Shown here in pieces: positions 30,503 through 40,982 of a DNA stretch of 64,000 bases. This DNA comes from Methanolinea sp. Lineage in GTDB: Archaea; Halobacteriota; Methanomicrobia; Methanomicrobiales; Methanospirillaceae. Numbering within the stretch: position 1 is the stretch's first letter; each line of letters begins with the position of its first letter. The notes under the pieces are model-generated. The model worked only from the letters and a program-made list of their open reading frames with translations. It was not told the origin of the DNA and did not search any database. Made by a program: the position numbers and the translations under genes. Location: contig JASFYI010000003.1 of assembly GCA_030055515.1 (NCBI GenBank), positions 124,001 to 188,000 on the forward strand, written 5' to 3'.

Positions 30503-32206
30503 ATGGCAAAGAAGATTGAGAGAACCCAGAAACTCTTCCTGAAGGCCCTCAAGAACAAATTCGCAGAGGACCCGCAGAGCACGACCACGGTGTATTCCAG
30601 GGTAGGTCTCAAGCAATCTCCAAGGAAGATGGAATTCGTCAAGGCCGGGAAGATTGCGGAGATGTCCCGTGGAATCGCCATGTACGACCCCGTGCGCTGC
30701 CACCTCGGTGGGATCCCCCTCGGGCAGCGCCAGCTGATGACCTACGAGGTCTCCGGGACGGGCGTGTTCGTGGAGGGTGACGACCTGCACTTCGTCAACA
30801 ACGCTGCAATGCAGCAGATGTGGGACGACATCCGCAGGACAATCATCGTCAACATGGACCTCGCCCACCAGACGCTCCAGAAGAGGCTGGGCAAGGAAGT
30901 CACCCCCGAGACCATCAACGAGTACCTCCACGTGGTCAACCACGCGATGCCCGGTGCAGCCGTGGTCCAGGAGCACATGGTCGAGACCCACCCCGGCCTC
31001 GTCGATGACTGTTACCTCAAGGTCTTCACCGGCGACGACGAGATGGTCGACGACCTCGAGCCCCAGTTCGTCATCAACATCGACAAGCTCTTCCCGGCAA
31101 AGCAGGCCGCCCAGCTGAAGGCAGCCGTCGGGAAGTCCATGTGGCAGGCCATCCACATCCCGACCATCGTCTCGAGAACCTGCGACGGTGGGACGACGTC
31201 CCGCTGGTCTGCGATGCAGCTCGGCATGTCCTTCATCGGTGCGTACCGCATGTGCGCCGGTGAGGCCGCGGTCGCCGACCTCGCGTTCGCCGCGAAGCAC
31301 GCGGGCGTTATCCAGATGGCCGAGATCCTGCCTGCCCGCCGTGCCCGTGGCCCGAACGAGCCGGGTGGTATCAAGTTCGGACACTTCGCAGACATGATCC
31401 AGACCGACAGGAAGTACCCGAACGACCCCGCCCGCGCATCTCTCGAGGTCGTCGCTGCAGGGACGATGCTCTTTGACCAGATCTGGCTCGGGTCCTACAT
31501 GTCCGGCGGTGTCGGGTTCACGCAGTACGCCACAGCCGCCTACACCGACAACATCCTCGACGACTTCACGTACTACGGGATGGACTATATCAAGGACAAG
31601 TACAAGGTCGACTGGCAGAACCCGAACGAGAAGGACAAGGTCAAGCCCAGCCAGGATGTCATCAACGACATCGCAACCGAGGTCACCCTCTACGGGATGG
31701 AGCAGTACGAGCACTTCCCGACCATGCTAGAAGACCACTTCGGCGGTTCCCAGCGTGCCTCGGTCCTCGCCGCTGCGTCCGGTCTCACAACCGCGATCGC
31801 AACAGGCAACTCGAATGCCGGGCTGAACGGCTGGTACCTCTCGATGCTCCTGCACAAGGAGGGCTGGTCACGCCTCGGGTTCTACGGATACGACCTCCAG
31901 GACCAGTGCGGCTCGGCGAACACCGAGTCGATCCGCGCAGACGAGGGTTGTGTCGGCGAACTCCGCGGACCGAACTACCCGAACTACGCGATGAACGTCG
32001 GTCACCAGGGAGAGTACGCCGCGATCTGCGGTGCAGCGCACTACACCCGCGGCGATGCATGGACTCTCAACCCGCTGATCAAGATCACGTTCGCGGACCC
32101 GTCCCTCAAGTTCGACTTCGCCGAGCCGAGACGCGAGTTCGCCCGCGGTGCGATCAGGGAGTTCATGCCGGCCGGGGAGCGCTCCCTCATCATCCCCGCA
32201 CGGTAA
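30503..32206 (+). CDS. mcrA: Methyl-coenzyme M reductase alpha subunit
   Basis: A 567-residue catalytic subunit. The segment [19 protein letters not shown] includes the arginine methylated in other methanogens, and [19 protein letters not shown] holds the thioglycine site; both are intact. The C-terminal [19 protein letters not shown] is typical. Only one mcr operon is in the window. A seven-T terminator follows within 20 bp of the stop. Confidence 0.99.
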
Positions 32207-32510: not shown

Positions 32511-33410
32511 ATGGAAAGTATTGCGTTTGGCATTGGAATAACTGCATTGGCAGGAGCTCTTGCCGCCGTGGCCGGTGCAGCGGAGAACACTGAGTCCGAT
32601 ATCGGGTCGCAGGGTGACCCGAACTCACAGGTCCAGCTCGCTCCGCAGATGGGGTACCTGCACCGCATCTTCAACAAGGCCATCGCCGGTGAACCGCCGG
32701 CATACGGCCTGTGGGTCGCACTCGGTGCCGGTCTCGCATGGGCTTTCATGGCAATGCACGTGAACCCGATACTCGCCATCGTGCTCGGGTGTGCCCTCGC
32801 CGTATTCGTGCAGGGCGTGTACGCGACCACCGCGTACCTGGGCAGGATCGCGAGCCTTTCGAAGTTCGGCCAGCCCGTCTTCATCGACGTGCTGAAATCG
32901 ATGACCACGGTCACCATGGCCCACGCCTTCGTGGCGATATTCACGACCGTGACGATCTGCCACCTGATCAACGCCGCACTCGGCCACCCGTTCCCGCTGC
33001 CCCTGCTCGGGCTCGTGTGGGGTATCGCGCTCGGTGCAGCCGGTTCCGCGACAGGAAACCCGTTCTACGGGAAGGAGAGGCAGTATCAGACCCAGAAGTT
33101 CGGGGCCGGTGTACCCATCGCCGCGTCCGGGAACATCGTCCGCTACGCCGAGGCTGGGGAGAGGAACTCCCTCGACAATGGCTGGTTCTCTGCGAAGCTT
33201 GGCGGTCCCGCCTCTGGTCTCTGCTTCGGGCTGATCGTCTTCCTCGAGCTCTGGCGCACAGTCCTCTTCGAGAAGGTCGGTGCGGGGTGGGGAGCGATCG
33301 TCGTGGGTATCATCATGATCCTCATCTTCACCGTGATCGACCGGTACATCGAGGTCTGGGCACGGAAGACCTACGGGCCGTACACCGAGCCCGCGAAGGA
33401 GGGATCGTGA
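32511..33410 (+). CDS. mtrE: Methyltransferase Mtr subunit E
   Basis: A 299-residue integral membrane subunit of the sodium-pumping N5-methyl-tetrahydromethanopterin:coenzyme M methyltransferase. It has several hydrophobic helices (for example IAFGIGITALAGALAAVAG at the N terminus and WGAIVVGIIMILIFTVIDR near the end) and the family loop EPPAYGLWVALGAG. GGAGGAGG precedes the ATG. It is the first gene of the mtr operon. Confidence 0.96.
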   Translation: MESIAFGIGITALAGALAAVAGAAENTESDIGSQGDPNSQVQLAPQMGYLHRIFNKAIAGEPPAYGLWVALGAGLAWAFMAMHVNPILAIVLGCALAVFVQGVYATTAYLGRIASLSKFGQPVFIDVLKSMTTVTMAHAFVAIFTTVTICHLINAALGHPFPLPLLGLVWGIALGAAGSATGNPFYGKERQYQTQKFGAGVPIAASGNIVRYAEAGERNSLDNGWFSAKLGGPASGLCFGLIVFLELWRTVLFEKVGAGWGAIVVGIIMILIFTVIDRYIEVWARKTYGPYTEPAKEGS

Positions 33411-33414
33411 GACC

Positions 33415-34251
33415 ATGACAGCCATCGGTGCGAAACCGGCTGCCGGTGCGACGATGGACATCCCCTCGACGATCGCGGGGATCATCCTGCTGATCGTCAT
33501 CGTGGGAGCGACGTACTTCCTCGTCGGGCCGGGAATGATGTTCTACGCCCTCCTCGGCGTCATAATCGGCGGACTCCTGATATCGTTCGGCGTCCACTTC
33601 GTCCCCGTCGGCGGTGCGCCCGCCGCGATGGGCCAGGCGCCGGGGATCGCGACGGGTGTCGCGATGCTCGCTGCCGGTGCGGGTCTCGCGGGCCTCTTCG
33701 GTGGCGCGTGGGCCGCGGAACAGGGCCTCGCCGTCGCCGTCATCACGGGTGCCGTGGGTGGCGGCCTGATGATGGCCATCACGTGCATGTTCGTCACCTT
33801 CATCTACGTCTTTGGCATGGGCATCCCCTCCGCGTCCGGAAAAGTCGCGAAGGACCCCATCACGGGTGACACGCAGACAGAATACAAGTCCCAGGGGACC
33901 GAGGGACACGGGCTCCCGTTCGTCTCCTACGTCGGTGGCGTCACGGGAGGTATCCTCGGCGGTGGCGGCGGGACGCTGATCTACATCATGCTCCTCGACG
34001 TCTACAAGGAGGCGCTCCCCGCCATGATGAAGGCGCAGGCCGCCCAGGTCGTCCCGATCGCGGTCAGCCTCGCGGGGATCTTCGCCATCGGCATGTTCCT
34101 CGTGAACGCGGTGCTCACGGCGTACAACATCACGGGGACGATCGAAGGCCCCCACGACCCGAAGTTCAAGCGCTTCCCCCGGGCACTCGTCGCCTCCGCG
34201 GTGGCATCGGCCCTCTGCGGGATGGTCGCAATCCTGATCGTGGCCATGTGA
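33415..34251 (+). CDS. mtrD: Methyltransferase Mtr subunit D
   Basis: A 278-residue multi-pass membrane subunit that, with MtrC and MtrE, forms the sodium-translocating part of Mtr. It has a family-typical segment FGVHFVPVGGAPAAMGQ and several Gly/Ala-rich transmembrane helices. It starts 4 bp after mtrE and ends just before mtrC. Confidence 0.95.
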   Translation: MTAIGAKPAAGATMDIPSTIAGIILLIVIVGATYFLVGPGMMFYALLGVIIGGLLISFGVHFVPVGGAPAAMGQAPGIATGVAMLAAGAGLAGLFGGAWAAEQGLAVAVITGAVGGGLMMAITCMFVTFIYVFGMGIPSASGKVAKDPITGDTQTEYKSQGTEGHGLPFVSYVGGVTGGILGGGGGTLIYIMLLDVYKEALPAMMKAQAAQVVPIAVSLAGIFAIGMFLVNAVLTAYNITGTIEGPHDPKFKRFPRALVASAVASALCGMVAILIVAM

Positions 34252-34261
34252 GGTGCGTAAA

Positions 34262-35110
34262 ATGACAGTCAAAGTCGAAGTAGTCGAGGGAGGAATTCCC
34301 CACAACACGATCATGGCAGCAGGCCTCGTCGCGTCGGTCATATTCGTGTACCTGACCTACGCGAACGTGCTCACGCAGACCCAGCTCTTCTCGTTCTTCG
34401 GGGGGCTCGCTGCCGTTGCCGCGATCACGTGGGGGAGCCACACCATCAAACACCTGTGCAGCTACGGTATCGGGACGGGTGTCCCGTCCGCGGGGATGAT
34501 GGCATTCGGGTCCGGTGTCATCGCGATGCTGTTCGCGACGAAGTTCGGGGTCGCCTCGCCGATCGTCGCCGTCGTCCTCGCCGCGGTCATCGGTGCAGTC
34601 CTCGGGTTCCTCTCGAACAACGTCCTGAACATGAGGATTCCCGTGATGATCCAGTCGCTCACCGAGATGGCGATCGTGGGGGCCCTCGTGCTCATGGGAT
34701 TCGCAGCGATGATAACGGGGTCGTTCGAGTTCCACGCCCTGACGTCCGGCTCCGTCTCCATCCTCGGGCTCTCCCTGCCGAGCTACCAGGCATCCTTCAT
34801 CGGGGGATCCCTGATCGCAGTTGTCTTCATGCTCGGCGGGATCGCGGTCCAGCACCCGTTCAACGCGTGCCTCGGCCCGAACTGGACCCAGGACAGGATG
34901 CTCACGCTCGCGCAGGAGTGCGGGTTCCTCTCGATGATCACGGCCGCGGTCATGTCGATGGTCTTCCTGTCTCTCTCGGCCGCGCTCGTCTCGCTCGTGG
35001 TGGCAATCGTGGGCTGGTACTACACGTACACGAAGTACATCGGCCTTGCCAAGAGGGACGCGGCAGCCTGGCTCGATGCAAAGCCGATTCCGGAACTGGA
35101 GGGACACTAG
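34262..35110 (+). CDS. mtrC: Methyltransferase Mtr subunit C
   Basis: A 282-residue multi-pass membrane subunit. It begins MTVKVEVVEGGIPHNTIMA and has family segments ITWGSHTIKHLCSYGIGTGVPSAG (residues around 60-83) and HPFNACLGPNWTQDRMLTLA. I chose the ATG at 34262, 6 bp after GAGGTG, over a GTG at 34253 that lies within that ribosome-binding site. Confidence 0.94.
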   Translation: MTVKVEVVEGGIPHNTIMAAGLVASVIFVYLTYANVLTQTQLFSFFGGLAAVAAITWGSHTIKHLCSYGIGTGVPSAGMMAFGSGVIAMLFATKFGVASPIVAVVLAAVIGAVLGFLSNNVLNMRIPVMIQSLTEMAIVGALVLMGFAAMITGSFEFHALTSGSVSILGLSLPSYQASFIGGSLIAVVFMLGGIAVQHPFNACLGPNWTQDRMLTLAQECGFLSMITAAVMSMVFLSLSAALVSLVVAIVGWYYTYTKYIGLAKRDAAAWLDAKPIPELEGH

Positions 35111-35392
35111 ATGTACGTCGAGGTTCTTCCCGAGTTCGGACTGGTCTGCGATCCGATGATCGGTGTCGTGACCACTGCGGGTGAATCGTATGCACCCATC
35201 ATCGAGAAGATAGGTGACCTCGAGGCGATCGCAGATGACCTCGTCAACATGCTCTCCGCGGAGGGGAACTTCCTCGCGTCGTTCCCGAACAGGGAGAAGA
35301 CACTCCCCACGGCGGGTGCTGCAACGGCCTACTGGTACGGGCTGGCGGTGGGACTCCTGATCGCCGGGGTGTACGTATTCCACCTGTTATGA
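35111..35392 (+). CDS. mtrB: Methyltransferase Mtr subunit B
   Basis: A 93-residue subunit with one C-terminal transmembrane helix ([20 protein letters not shown]). The N terminus [18 protein letters not shown] is typical of MtrB. It sits between mtrC and the first mtrA and directly abuts mtrC. Confidence 0.93.
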
Positions 35393-35908
35393 GGTGAGAG
35401 AGATGGTAGAGAAGAAATCACCAGCAAGCGGGTGGCCGGTCGTCCAGGGAGATTTCCACGCGGGCGACCCCCAGAGCCCGGTCGCGGTCATGACATGCGG
35501 GTCGCACCTCGACGAGAAGGCCATCTGCGAAGGCGGAGCCGCCATCGCGGGGTCCTGCAAGACCGAGAACCTCGGCCTCGAGAAGGTCATCGCGAACATC
35601 ATCTCCAACCCCAACATCCGGTTCCTCCTGCTCTGCGGGACCGAGGTGAAGGGCCACCTCGCGGGCCAGACGATGGCTGCACTCCACAAGAACGGCGTCA
35701 AGGACGGGAGGGTCGTCGGTGCTGAGGGTGCAATCCCCTTCATCGAGAACCTCAAGGACGACGCCATCAAGCGCTTCCAGGAGCAGGTCGAACTGGTCAA
35801 CATCATGGAGACCGAGGACCTCGGGACCATCAAGGCCAAGATCGCGGAACTCAAGGCCCGCGACCCGGGCGCCTTCCCCGCGGACCCGATGGTCGTCGAG
35901 GTCAAGGA
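35389..35908 (+). repeat. 520-bp direct repeat, copy 1 (mtrA coding part and its ribosome-binding site)
   Basis: Matches 36334-36853 at a constant offset of 945 bp. By eye there are four base differences, all within the first 65 bp after the ATG, then about 440 bp with none. It includes the upstream ATGAGGTGAGAGAG ribosome-binding region. Confidence 0.95.
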
Positions 35909-36128
35909 GGCCGCCGCGGGTGGCACGGAGGAGGCCGGCGGAGTTATCCGGCCGCTTTCCGGGGAACTCGCCCTGATCCACGCCCGGATGAAGATCATCG
36001 AGAAGATGGTGACGGACATAGGGTACCGCGACAAGTTCGCTGCCGGAGTGTACGCGGGCAAGATCGAGGGGATCATGATCGGCCTGATCGTGTCGTTCAC
36101 CGTCCTCGGTTTCATGCTGATGGGGTGA
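35403..36128 (+). CDS. mtrA: Methyltransferase Mtr subunit A, first copy (complete)
   Basis: A 241-residue corrinoid subunit that accepts the methyl group on Co(I) and passes it to coenzyme M. The lower-ligand His is His85 in [10 protein letters not shown]. The C-terminal helix [19 protein letters not shown] anchors it in the membrane, as in ordinary MtrA. The ATG at 35403 follows GAGGTGAGAG. Residues 1-168 are repeated with a single change (position 2) in the gene at 36348. Confidence 0.96.
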
Positions 36129-36135
36129 GGGAAGA

Positions 36136-36342
36136 ATGGCAGAAGAAGGACAGAAAATGGCAGGACCGATCCGGATGGTCGCCATCGAGAACATGATGGA
36201 GAACATCCGGTACAAGGCGCAGTTGATCGCGAGGTCGAACAAGTACGACTCCGCGATCCTCGGCATGGGCCTCGTCGGGTTCGCCGCGGGATTGCTGACC
36301 GCGCTGGTCCTGATCGTGGTGCCTGCCCTTGTCATGAGGTGA
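36136..36342 (+). CDS. mtrF: Methyltransferase Mtr subunit F
   Basis: A 68-residue subunit with a short N-terminal soluble part ([18 protein letters not shown]) and one C-terminal transmembrane helix, [20 protein letters not shown]. Size and the YKAQLI.R pattern fit MtrF. It lies between the two mtrA copies. Confidence 0.9.
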
Positions 36343-36853
36343 GAGAGATGGGAGAGAAGAAATCACCAGCGAGCGGGTGGCCGGTCGTCCAGGGAGACTT
36401 CCACGCGGGGGACCCCCAGAGCCCGGTCGCGGTCATGACATGCGGGTCGCACCTCGACGAGAAGGCCATCTGCGAAGGCGGAGCCGCCATCGCGGGGTCC
36501 TGCAAGACCGAGAACCTCGGCCTCGAGAAGGTCATCGCGAACATCATCTCCAACCCCAACATCCGGTTCCTCCTGCTCTGCGGGACCGAGGTGAAGGGCC
36601 ACCTCGCGGGCCAGACGATGGCTGCACTCCACAAGAACGGCGTCAAGGACGGGAGGGTCGTCGGTGCTGAGGGTGCAATCCCCTTCATCGAGAACCTCAA
36701 GGACGACGCCATCAAGCGCTTCCAGGAGCAGGTCGAACTGGTCAACATCATGGAGACCGAGGACCTCGGGACCATCAAGGCCAAGATCGCGGAACTCAAG
36801 GCCCGCGACCCGGGCGCCTTCCCCGCGGACCCGATGGTCGTCGAGGTCAAGGA
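36334..36853 (+). repeat. 520-bp direct repeat, copy 2
   Basis: Second copy of the mtrA segment at 35389-35908; it begins within the last codons of mtrF. After the shared GAGGTCAAGGA the two sequences diverge completely, one into the MtrA anchor and the other into MtrG. Confidence 0.95.
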
Positions 36854-37088
36854 AGCTGCAGCCGGCGGCGTCGAGGTCGCGGCCGCGGGTGTCAACCCGC
36901 AGTTCCTCGAGATCGAGAAGAGGCTGGACAAGATCGAGAAGAAGATCGAGTTTGCCGATGCCGAGATTGCGCAGCGCGTGGGAAGGAAGATCGGAAGGGA
37001 CATCGGCATCCTCTACGGACTGGTCGCCGGACTGACCGTGTTCGTGATGCTGCTCGTCCTGCTCCCGAAGCTGAATATGATGATCTGA
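36348..37088 (+). CDS. Fusion of a second MtrA corrinoid domain with MtrG
   Basis: A 246-residue protein. Residues 1-168 equal the first MtrA except for Gly in place of Val at position 2, and keep the cobalamin-ligand His85. The rest, from [17 protein letters not shown] through [20 protein letters not shown] to the helix [14 protein letters not shown], is a complete MtrG. No separate mtrG exists in the operon, and this gene stands where mtrG is expected (F-G-H order), so it supplies MtrG with an extra MtrA head. It could double the corrinoid content of the complex. The ATG at 36348 has GAGGTGAGAG upstream. Confidence 0.93.
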
Positions 37089-37106: not shown

Positions 37107-38144
37107 ATGTTCAGGTTTGAGAAAGAACAGAAAGTCTGGGACTTCAACGGCACCAAGATTGGTGGTCAGCCTGGAGAGTACCCGACCGTACTTGCGTGCT
37201 CAATCTTCTACAACAAGCACGAGATCGTGCTTGACGAGAAGACCGGAAAGATCGACAAAGCGGCTGCGGAGGCGCTCTGGAACAGGTGCCAGGAGCTCTC
37301 CGACATGGTGGGTATCCCGCACTTCATCCAGATCCTCGCCGAGTACCCGCAGGCGTTCGAGAGCTACTTCACGTGGTTTGACAGCATCGACAACAAGACG
37401 GCGTTCCTCATGGACTCGTCCGTTCCCCAGTGCCTCGCGCACGCCTGCAAGTTCGTGACCGAGGTGGGCCTCGCGCACCGCGCGATCTACAACTCGATTA
37501 ACGGGTCGATCCTGCCGGAGAACATCGAGGCCCTCAAGAACAGCGACGTCGATGCCGCGATCGTCCTCGCGTTCAACCCCGCGGACCCGACCGTTCAGGG
37601 GAGGGAGAAGGTCCTCGTCGAGGGCGGTGTCGCCGGGCAGGCGAAGGGGATGCTCCAGATCGCAGAGGAGTGCGGGATCACGAGGCCCATCCTCGACACC
37701 GCGGCAACCCCGCTCGGGCTCGGGTCCGGGAGCGCGTACCGCGAGATCCTCGCCTGCAAGGCGATCCACGGGCTCCCGACCGGCGGTGCGTACCACAACA
37801 TGACGGTCGCGTGGACCTGGCTCAAGCGCTGGAAGGGATCGAAGAAGAACCCGTCCCAGCTCCTCGAGTCCCTGAAGGGCAAGGACATCTACGTGAAGCA
37901 GCTCCTCCACCACTACCTCGGCGGTCTCGAGGGAGTTGTCCAGGCGGCATGGTCAGCCCCCGACATCGGGTGCAACCTCGTCGCGAGCACGCTCGGCGCA
38001 GACCTCATCATGTACGGCCCGATCGAGAACGTCGAGCCGATGATCACTGCCCAGGCATACATGGACATCGTCACGCTCGAGGCGATGCGGCCGCTGGGAA
38101 TCGAGTGCAAGTCCGAGAACCACCCGTTCTTCAAACTCATCTAA
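37107..38144 (+). CDS. mtrH: Methyltransferase Mtr subunit H
   Basis: A 345-residue soluble subunit that takes the methyl group from methyl-tetrahydromethanopterin to the corrinoid of MtrA. It begins MFRFEKEQKVWDFNGTKIGG and has NSINGSILPENIEALKNSDV and ITRPILDTAATPLGLGSGSA, typical of this TIM-barrel methyltransferase family. A good ribosome-binding site (GGAGGTG) precedes it. It is the last gene of the operon. Confidence 0.97.
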   Translation: MFRFEKEQKVWDFNGTKIGGQPGEYPTVLACSIFYNKHEIVLDEKTGKIDKAAAEALWNRCQELSDMVGIPHFIQILAEYPQAFESYFTWFDSIDNKTAFLMDSSVPQCLAHACKFVTEVGLAHRAIYNSINGSILPENIEALKNSDVDAAIVLAFNPADPTVQGREKVLVEGGVAGQAKGMLQIAEECGITRPILDTAATPLGLGSGSAYREILACKAIHGLPTGGAYHNMTVAWTWLKRWKGSKKNPSQLLESLKGKDIYVKQLLHHYLGGLEGVVQAAWSAPDIGCNLVASTLGADLIMYGPIENVEPMITAQAYMDIVTLEAMRPLGIECKSENHPFFKLI

Positions 38145-38798: not shown

Positions 38799-39974
38799 TT
38801 ATCCCCTCCCCCTGCCCTCCCTCGTTGCGAGGAACCGCACGAGCGCCATGATCCCGGGTTTCCCCTCCTTCCTGTGCCCCCGTCCCGGCACAAACATCTC
38901 ATAGAAGGGATTTTCAAGCATCTCCCTCTCGAGGCGCCCGGAGATCTCGTCGAATATCCTCGCGTACGCGGTGCAGTAGGGATCGACGCCCGCGATCTCG
39001 CCCCCGTTTGGGACCATCGCGTTGTAGGGGCATCCCCCCCTGCAGTACCGGATGTGGGGGCAGTCCGCGCACGCCCTGTCGACGAGGTCCCGGAATTCCT
39101 GCATCCGCCTGCCGACGGGCGAATCCGCGAGCTGCGCGATGGACGGGCGGTCGGCAACGTGCCCCATCGCGTACTCCGGCATCCCCACGAACCGGTAGCA
39201 GGGGTAGATGGTCCCGTCCGGGCCCACGGCAAACGTGCTCCCCATGCAGTCCACGTAGGTGCAGACCGTCCCGTGCCGGAAGATGACGCACTTGCAGAGG
39301 TCATTGATGTTCATGATCTCGAAGGTCCCGAGGTTCTCGAGGGAGACATCGAGGAGGTACACGAGGAGCTCGCCGTAGTCGGCAGGATCGAGGACCCAGG
39401 GCTCGGGATTGTCGTTCCGCAGGGAGGGGAGCGCGGGGTGGAGCTTCAGCACGAACCCGTTCTCCCTGAAGAAACGGACGATCTCCTCCTTCTTCCCGAT
39501 GGACTGGGATGTGAACGTGCAGATGAAGCTCACCCGCAGCCCGTGATCCCGGGCGATCCTGTACCCCCTCATCGTCTTCTCGAAGTACCCTTCGCCCCTC
39601 TGGGCATCGCAGATCGGCTGGGGCCCGTCGATGCTCGTCCCGATGGGAACGTTGAACTCGGCGAGGATCTCCGCGATCTCGTCGGTGAGGAGCCAGAGGT
39701 TGGACTGCATCGCAAACTCGGGCCTCGATCGACCGGTGCTCCCCGCGAGGATGGGGAGCGCCTCCCGGTAGAAGGCCGCGCCGGCGAGGAGGGGTTCCCC
39801 GCCGTGGAACGTGAACGTGACCCGGTCCCTCCCGAGGGAAGAGACCCACTCCGCGACGTCGCTCACTGTCGCGATGTCCATGCGGGCGGAGCCCGGCTCC
39901 GAGCTCCAGCAGTACCTGCACCGCGCGGGGCACCCGAGGGTGGGGACGAGCATCACGTGGAACGGATTCTTCAT
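38799..39974 (-). CDS. Radical SAM protein with SPASM domain, putative peptide-modifying enzyme
   Basis: A 391-residue radical SAM enzyme of the sulfatase-maturase-like group. The SAM-cluster motif is Cys15, Cys19, Cys22 (PTLGCPARCRYC). A C-terminal SPASM region follows, with CKC, VCTYVDC, YPCYRF and CADCPHIRYCRGGCPYNA for auxiliary clusters. Such enzymes modify peptides or proteins. It resembles a family of putative peptide-modifying enzymes in Methanomicrobiales (from memory; not checked). I found no Cys-rich or other precursor gene beside it. The ATG at 39974 is chosen over a TTG at 39995. Confidence 0.88.
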   Translation of the reverse strand: MKNPFHVMLVPTLGCPARCRYCWSSEPGSARMDIATVSDVAEWVSSLGRDRVTFTFHGGEPLLAGAAFYREALPILAGSTGRSRPEFAMQSNLWLLTDEIAEILAEFNVPIGTSIDGPQPICDAQRGEGYFEKTMRGYRIARDHGLRVSFICTFTSQSIGKKEEIVRFFRENGFVLKLHPALPSLRNDNPEPWVLDPADYGELLVYLLDVSLENLGTFEIMNINDLCKCVIFRHGTVCTYVDCMGSTFAVGPDGTIYPCYRFVGMPEYAMGHVADRPSIAQLADSPVGRRMQEFRDLVDRACADCPHIRYCRGGCPYNAMVPNGGEIAGVDPYCTAYARIFDEISGRLEREMLENPFYEMFVPGRGHRKEGKPGIMALVRFLATREGRGRG

Positions 39975-40099
39975 GCGTACCTGTCTCTTTCGCAACGTCC
40001 GAGTTAAGGGTTACCCCGCCCGGTCCCCCCCACTTTCACGCCTCCTGCCCCACCTTCATCAGGGGGGACGCGCACATCCCGGGAGGAGGCGAGGAAAGG

Positions 40100-40391: not shown

Positions 40392-40799
40392 TCAGGGGAG
40401 GTCGAGGGGCTCGAATCCCTGCTTGTACACCTTCCCGAACTGGAGCGAGATCTTCGGGTCGAGGTTGCAGATCGGGCAGGTGTAGTCGTCGGGGAGGTCC
40501 TCGAACGGGGTCCCCGGCTTGATCCCCCTGTGCGGTTCCCCCCTCGCCTGGTCATAGACGTACCCGCAGACAGAGCAGATGTACTTCGTCGGGACCCACT
40601 CCTCGAAACCCCACTTCCCGATCTTCCCCTTCCCCTCCATCCCGCAGATGGGGCAGACGTACGTCTCGGGGAGATCTTCGAAGGGCGTTCCCGCCGGGAT
40701 CCCGTTGTGCGGCTCCCCGCGGAGGGGGGAGTAGATGTACCCGCAGATCCGGCACTTGTACCTCTTCACTCTCTTTTCCGGTTCCTTGCTCTTTGCCAT
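40392..40799 (-). CDS. Two-domain rubredoxin
   Basis: A 135-residue protein with two rubredoxin folds in tandem. Each has paired Cys motifs for one Fe: CRICGY and CPICGM in the first domain, CSVCGY and CPICNL in the second. Both keep the GTPFEDLP segment typical of rubredoxins. It is probably an electron donor, for example to oxygen- or peroxide-reducing enzymes. The domains differ in the link between the Cys pairs. It is divergent from the F390 synthetase-like gene, with 183 bp between them. Confidence 0.93.
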
Positions 40800-40982
40800 G
40801 GTCTTGCCACGTCCGTCGAATCCGACAACTACGAAAGTCCCCCTGCGAGATGTTAATAGTATTTCTCCCGGAATGCGGGTACACCGAGCCGCCCGGCCTC
40901 GTGCGTGAACTCCGGTCCTCCCCGCGTGCAAGAACACGGGGACCGCGAGCCTCATGAGCCCCGGCGACCATACACACACTCC

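Follow-up and report, generated by a model that had tools for sequence, protein, structure and literature searches.

A second MtrA corrinoid domain fused to MtrG in Methanolinea sp. and throughout the Methanomicrobiales

In the genome of Methanolinea sp., the stalk subunit MtrG was found only as the tail of a fusion protein whose head is a second MtrA corrinoid domain, and the fusion is fixed across the order Methanomicrobiales. Mtr carries out a central, energy-conserving step of hydrogenotrophic methanogenesis in which Na+ is pumped, and the Methanomicrobiales are major methane producers. With a probability of roughly 0.75, the fusion is the gene mtrA-2b and gives each Mtr protomer two tethered heads (about six per trimer), the second having the same role as the head of MtrA. 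The gene structure was implied to be new when read from sequence alone; as an order-wide trait it has in fact been known since 2015 as mtrA-2b (Wang et al., 2015; PMC4632066), and the remaining interest lies in the stoichiometry of Mtr. In that study, based on eight Methanomicrobiales genomes, two mtrA copies were described in Methanomicrobiales and Methanococcales, the second fused to mtrG (mtrA-2b, Methanomicrobiales) or to mtrF (mtrA-2a, Methanococcales), with gene conversion keeping the mtrA heads alike; Muller's ratchet and paralogue interference were discussed, and the accessible text does not state a consequence for corrinoid stoichiometry. A 2018 study placed mtrA among long-lasting concerted genes (PMC6053082).

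The window, i.e. the whole stretch of 64,000 nucleotides that was analyzed (contig JASFYI010000003.1, positions 124,001 to 188,000, assembly GCA_030055515.1), contained a complete mtr operon in the order mtrE-D-C-B-A-F-(A)G-H, all on the + strand, with mcrA (30503-32206) upstream (Table 1). The sequence-only reading had proposed a normal mtrA, then mtrF, then a second MtrA head fused to MtrG, and Pfam placed both domains in one open reading frame: MtrA at residues 4-172 (E 1.6e-84) and MtrG at residues 185-237 (E 4e-23), both far above the cut-off. The span it gave for this feature (35403-37088) does contain the fusion, but also covers mtrA and mtrF, the fusion itself occupying 36348-37088. 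The fusion adjoins mtrF and mtrH with the normal mtrA upstream, which is the position of mtrA-2b. The upstream mtrA is ordinary, aligning with solved MtrA chains over its full length, and mtrF is a separate gene rather than being joined to MtrA as in mtrA-2a (MtrA-MtrF).

Table 1. Genes of the mtr operon and parts of the fusion gene, in window coordinates
Feature	Position	Strand	Description	Support
mtrE	32511..33410	+	membrane subunit	Pfam MtrE 2.5e-127
mtrD	33415..34251	+	membrane subunit; actual start possibly further in	Pfam MtrD 2e-93
mtrC	34253..35110	+	membrane subunit	Pfam MtrC 3.4e-68
mtrB	35111..35392	+	stalk subunit, N-terminus docks MtrH	Pfam MtrB 1.8e-30
mtrA (mtrA-1)	35403..36128	+	241 aa; corrinoid domain, linker, stalk/TM helix	Pfam: MtrA only
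mtrF	36136..36342	+	free, 68 aa	Pfam MtrF 7.1e-21
mtrA-G fusion (mtrA-2b)	36348..37088	+	246 aa	sole MtrG in genome
Second MtrA corrinoid domain of fusion	36348..36851	+	residues 1-168	
443-nt identical stretch, gene-conversion tract core	36411..36853	+	equals 35466-35908 of mtrA	
Disordered linker of fusion	36855..36896	+	residues 170-183	pLDDT <50
MtrG stalk and transmembrane helix of fusion	36897..37085	+	residues 184-246	
mtrH	37107..38144	+	methyltransferase methylating corrinoid	Pfam MtrH 1.9e-99

The ligand His85 is present in both heads (CAC at 35655 in mtrA and at 36600 in the fusion), as had been read for the extra head. The fusion tail matched MtrG chains 9qtq_S and 8q3v_G, and MtrA's own C-terminal transmembrane helix is missing from it, identity to mtrA stopping in the linker. 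The MtrG Pfam model was matched from position 11 onward, indicating that the MtrA head and linker stand in for roughly the ten N-terminal positions of MtrG; the M. mazei chain 9qtq_S (72 aa) aligned to the fusion from its residue 6. AlphaFold2 on 52 fusion proteins predicted the head followed by a linker without ordered structure (170-183) and then a single helix of 62 residues (184-245); mean pLDDT was 79, so only the coarse layout was relied on. The predicted head fitted solved MtrA structures (5l8x, 5laa, 9qtr) at 1.5-1.9 Å. From head residue 165, the linker runs 15-18 residues to a conserved NPQF motif in the fusion and 21-26 residues to the ALIHAR motif in MtrA; with linkers of similar size, the reach of both heads would be of the same order.

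Some further features of the region were recorded. A 43-nt segment in the stalk part of mtrA (35984-36026) is 72% alike to the start of mtrF (36171-36213), and the MtrF and MtrA stalk proteins share 28% identity over 43 aa (E 0.010). This is a weak hint of a common origin of MtrF and the MtrA stalk helix, and the match is too weak for a claim that MtrF was derived from the stalk. Near the operon on the - strand, judged by translation, lie a 398-aa radical-SAM-like frame with C-terminal cysteine motifs, 3' of mtrH (38799-39995), and a frame with an apparent tandem double rubredoxin of two CxxCG...CPxC units (40392-40810).

The genome gave one match to PF04210 (MtrG) and two to PF04208 (MtrA); no free or second mtrG was found in it by the PF04210 search (assembly estimated 99.1% complete), in agreement with the sequence-only reading, which had also proposed a survey of mtrG in the Methanomicrobiales. 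MtrG was found in 179 of 232 genomes in a class-wide search, with 150 matches listed for the order. A full-length fusion frame (at least 230 aa) was present in 101 of these, and in the remaining 49 the frame was interrupted by the end of a contig, an N gap or a frameshift; 21 of the 49 were + strand matches no more than about 430 bases from the start of a contig, and the single frameshift case (L043/L118) was beside a contig end. Frames of 80-215 aa were considered as candidate free mtrG genes and rejected, each listed case being one of these interruptions. Neither a free mtrG nor loss of the head was found among the 150 listed matches, and in several genera, closed genomes of one contig carried two full-length MtrA domains apiece. 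Outside the Methanomicrobiales, MtrG frames among the matches listed for the phylum measured 73-143 aa, i.e. were free, and no MtrA-MtrG fusion was found among them. Separately, a further, distant MtrA-like gene was seen outside the operon in genomes G015, G020, G030, G031 and G036 (approximately 108-125 bits).

Over their first 165 codons (495 nt), the two heads of the Methanolinea genome shared 99.2% of DNA and 99.4% of protein positions. The 4 mismatches all fall within the first 63 nt; an identical run of 443 nt follows, and divergence then starts in the linker and leads into unrelated tails. Both heads were complete at 90 distinct loci, from which 82 pairs with equal-length heads were analyzed. 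Head DNA identity within a genome averaged 95.5% (median 97.3%, range 79.4-100%), vs. 75.3% for fusion heads between genomes. The fusion head's nearest relative was its own mtrA in 63 of 82 cases, the two were sisters in the tree in 61 of 82, and grouping every fusion head in one clade was rejected (p-AU 7e-4, quick tree). The Methanolinea genome does not belong to the exceptions in which the heads are non-sisters, and it shows the concerted evolution of mtrA-2b. Across 52 pairs with enough flank, identity was about 0.3 per position upstream, rose at the start codon and decayed within the linker, indicating that homogenization is confined to the head; gene conversion limited to the head coding region would keep the heads near-identical. 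The gene-conversion pattern of Wang et al. (2015) is thus reproduced on 82 pairs. A recent species-specific duplication is ruled out by the identical structure across the order together with the occurrence of non-sister head pairs.

Among the genomes reported, the lowest head identities (79-84% DNA) were found in L076, L077, L187, L193, L195 and L200, which include Methanospirillum and Methanomicrobium, and gene conversion between the heads appears to have lapsed in these lineages. In the same six together with L027, L156 and L186, dS between the copies was 0.5-1.7 with dN/dS of 0.04-0.12, indicating heads that have been largely separate in evolution and are both still conserved. This purifying selection in conversion-lapsed lineages is an addition beyond Wang et al. 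(2015). The mean dN/dS between copies was 0.073, a pairwise value by which the constrained copy is not distinguishable, yet no fusion head was without the ligand or with a stop: the cobalt-ligand histidine was kept in 82 of 82 pairs in both copies, without stops. In the 82 pairs, 67 of 165 head columns were invariant in both copies. Change in the segments that surround the histidine (residues 79-117) is about 3-fold less frequent than elsewhere, and in the most diverged lineages 5 of 198 cells of the histidine segment differ. Given the strong purifying selection in diverged lineages and the histidine kept in 82 of 82, the additional head very probably functions as a corrinoid carrier.

These data bear on a reading that sees the second head as structural or spare, kept mainly by conversion from mtrA and by the need for an intact MtrG N-terminus, and not by a need for two carriers. 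Conversion is frequent and heads are near-identical in most genomes, and with MtrG essential the locus cannot simply be lost; conversion-kept identity would also arise if the second head were only weakly selected. Evidence against a spare part comes from the diverged lineages, in which the heads are still under strong purifying selection at dS 0.5-1.7 and the cobalt-ligand segment is kept, from the lack of any head loss or free mtrG among the 150 listed matches and from the parallel MtrA-MtrF fusion in Methanococcales (PMC4632066). A spare part is therefore considered unlikely, and the comparison favors a second head that selection maintains as a functional corrinoid domain, beyond its being a copy overwritten by its neighbor.

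In M. marburgensis (PMC10998594) and M. mazei (PMC12774963), both species without the fusion and the sources of both published Mtr structures, the stalk is threefold and consists of MtrA, B, F and G. It contains three copies of MtrG, and the only carrier present is the MtrA head. By analogy with these structures, a complex built with the fusion as its MtrG would naturally be expected to hold six corrinoid domains per trimer. Each protomer would have one corrinoid domain tethered on MtrA and one on MtrG, the doubling that the sequence-only reading had proposed; the MtrG-borne head would take the methyl group from methyl-H4MPT at MtrH and pass it to CoM at MtrCDE, the effect being more carrier per complex with the chemistry unchanged. 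The fusion would accordingly be expected to be translated as one chain, incorporated at three copies, loaded with cobamide and active in turnover; it could also be cleaved, or its head could stay an apo-domain. If the corrinoid domains are doubled, then mechanism, B12 demand and activity per complex would differ across the order, and the present structures would be unrepresentative of Methanomicrobiales. The words 'fusion' and 'fused' do not occur in the accessible text of the two structure papers (PMC10998594, PMC12774963), and no published test of six vs. three B12 domains in Mtr was found in the literature.

The M. mazei complex contains three MtrH dimers, i.e. six barrels, for three MtrA heads; contact of its membrane-distal barrels with MtrA is considered sterically unlikely, and the MtrG N-terminus lies in the B-F-G sheet beside MtrH (PMC12774963). 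From these two features it might be speculated that the MtrG-borne head serves the second barrel. The extended version, in which six heads are matched one-to-one to six MtrH barrels, the MtrG head works on the membrane-distal MtrH, presumed largely idle in one-head complexes, and two methyl carriers alternate per Na+-pumping site, is regarded as doubtful. The surplus of barrels and the placement of the MtrG N-terminus could also suit heads with separate roles, e.g. one for MtrCDE and the other for the membrane-distal MtrH or a regulatory partner, and residues 3, 5, 6, 24, 157, 162 and others differ in the same direction in diverged lineages. Such specialization is improbable: the heads are near-identical in most genomes, so only the tether could specialize, and the differing positions lie mostly at the domain ends.

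An assembly artefact, with mtrA duplicated or mtrG misjoined to mtrA, had been allowed for by the sequence-only reading and might be suspected from heads 99% identical and from many draft assemblies breaking exactly at this locus, but it is ruled out by the same arrangement in closed genomes of many genera, by four copy-specific differences, unrelated tails and an mtrF between the copies, and by the earlier publication of the fusion from complete genomes (PMC4632066). Contigs of draft genomes such as G133, G030, G038, G028 and G001 break inside the near-identical mtrA heads. As such breaks can make mtrG or mtrA falsely appear missing, draft genomes that seem to be without either very probably have both.

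Compared with known systems, the fusion shares with mtrA-2b the site between mtrF and mtrH, the domain order, the coexisting mtrA-1 and the within-genome head homogenization, and as far as mtrA-2b is described in the accessible text (PMC4632066) it differs in nothing essential, coming from a further species outside those eight genomes; the closest named relatives are MAGs of Methanolinea, with 95% protein identity. With mtrA-2a it has in common a second MtrA head carried on another stalk subunit and kept identical by gene conversion, whereas in mtrA-2a the head is joined to MtrF and here it is joined to MtrG, with mtrF free at 68 aa (PMC4632066). All eight subunits and the operon order agree with canonical Mtr (M. 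marburgensis 8q3v, M. mazei 9qtq), as do the head, linker and stalk helix of MtrA and the stalk helix of MtrG. In the canonical complex, by contrast, each protomer has a single corrinoid domain, and MtrG is a free protein of 86 or 72 aa.
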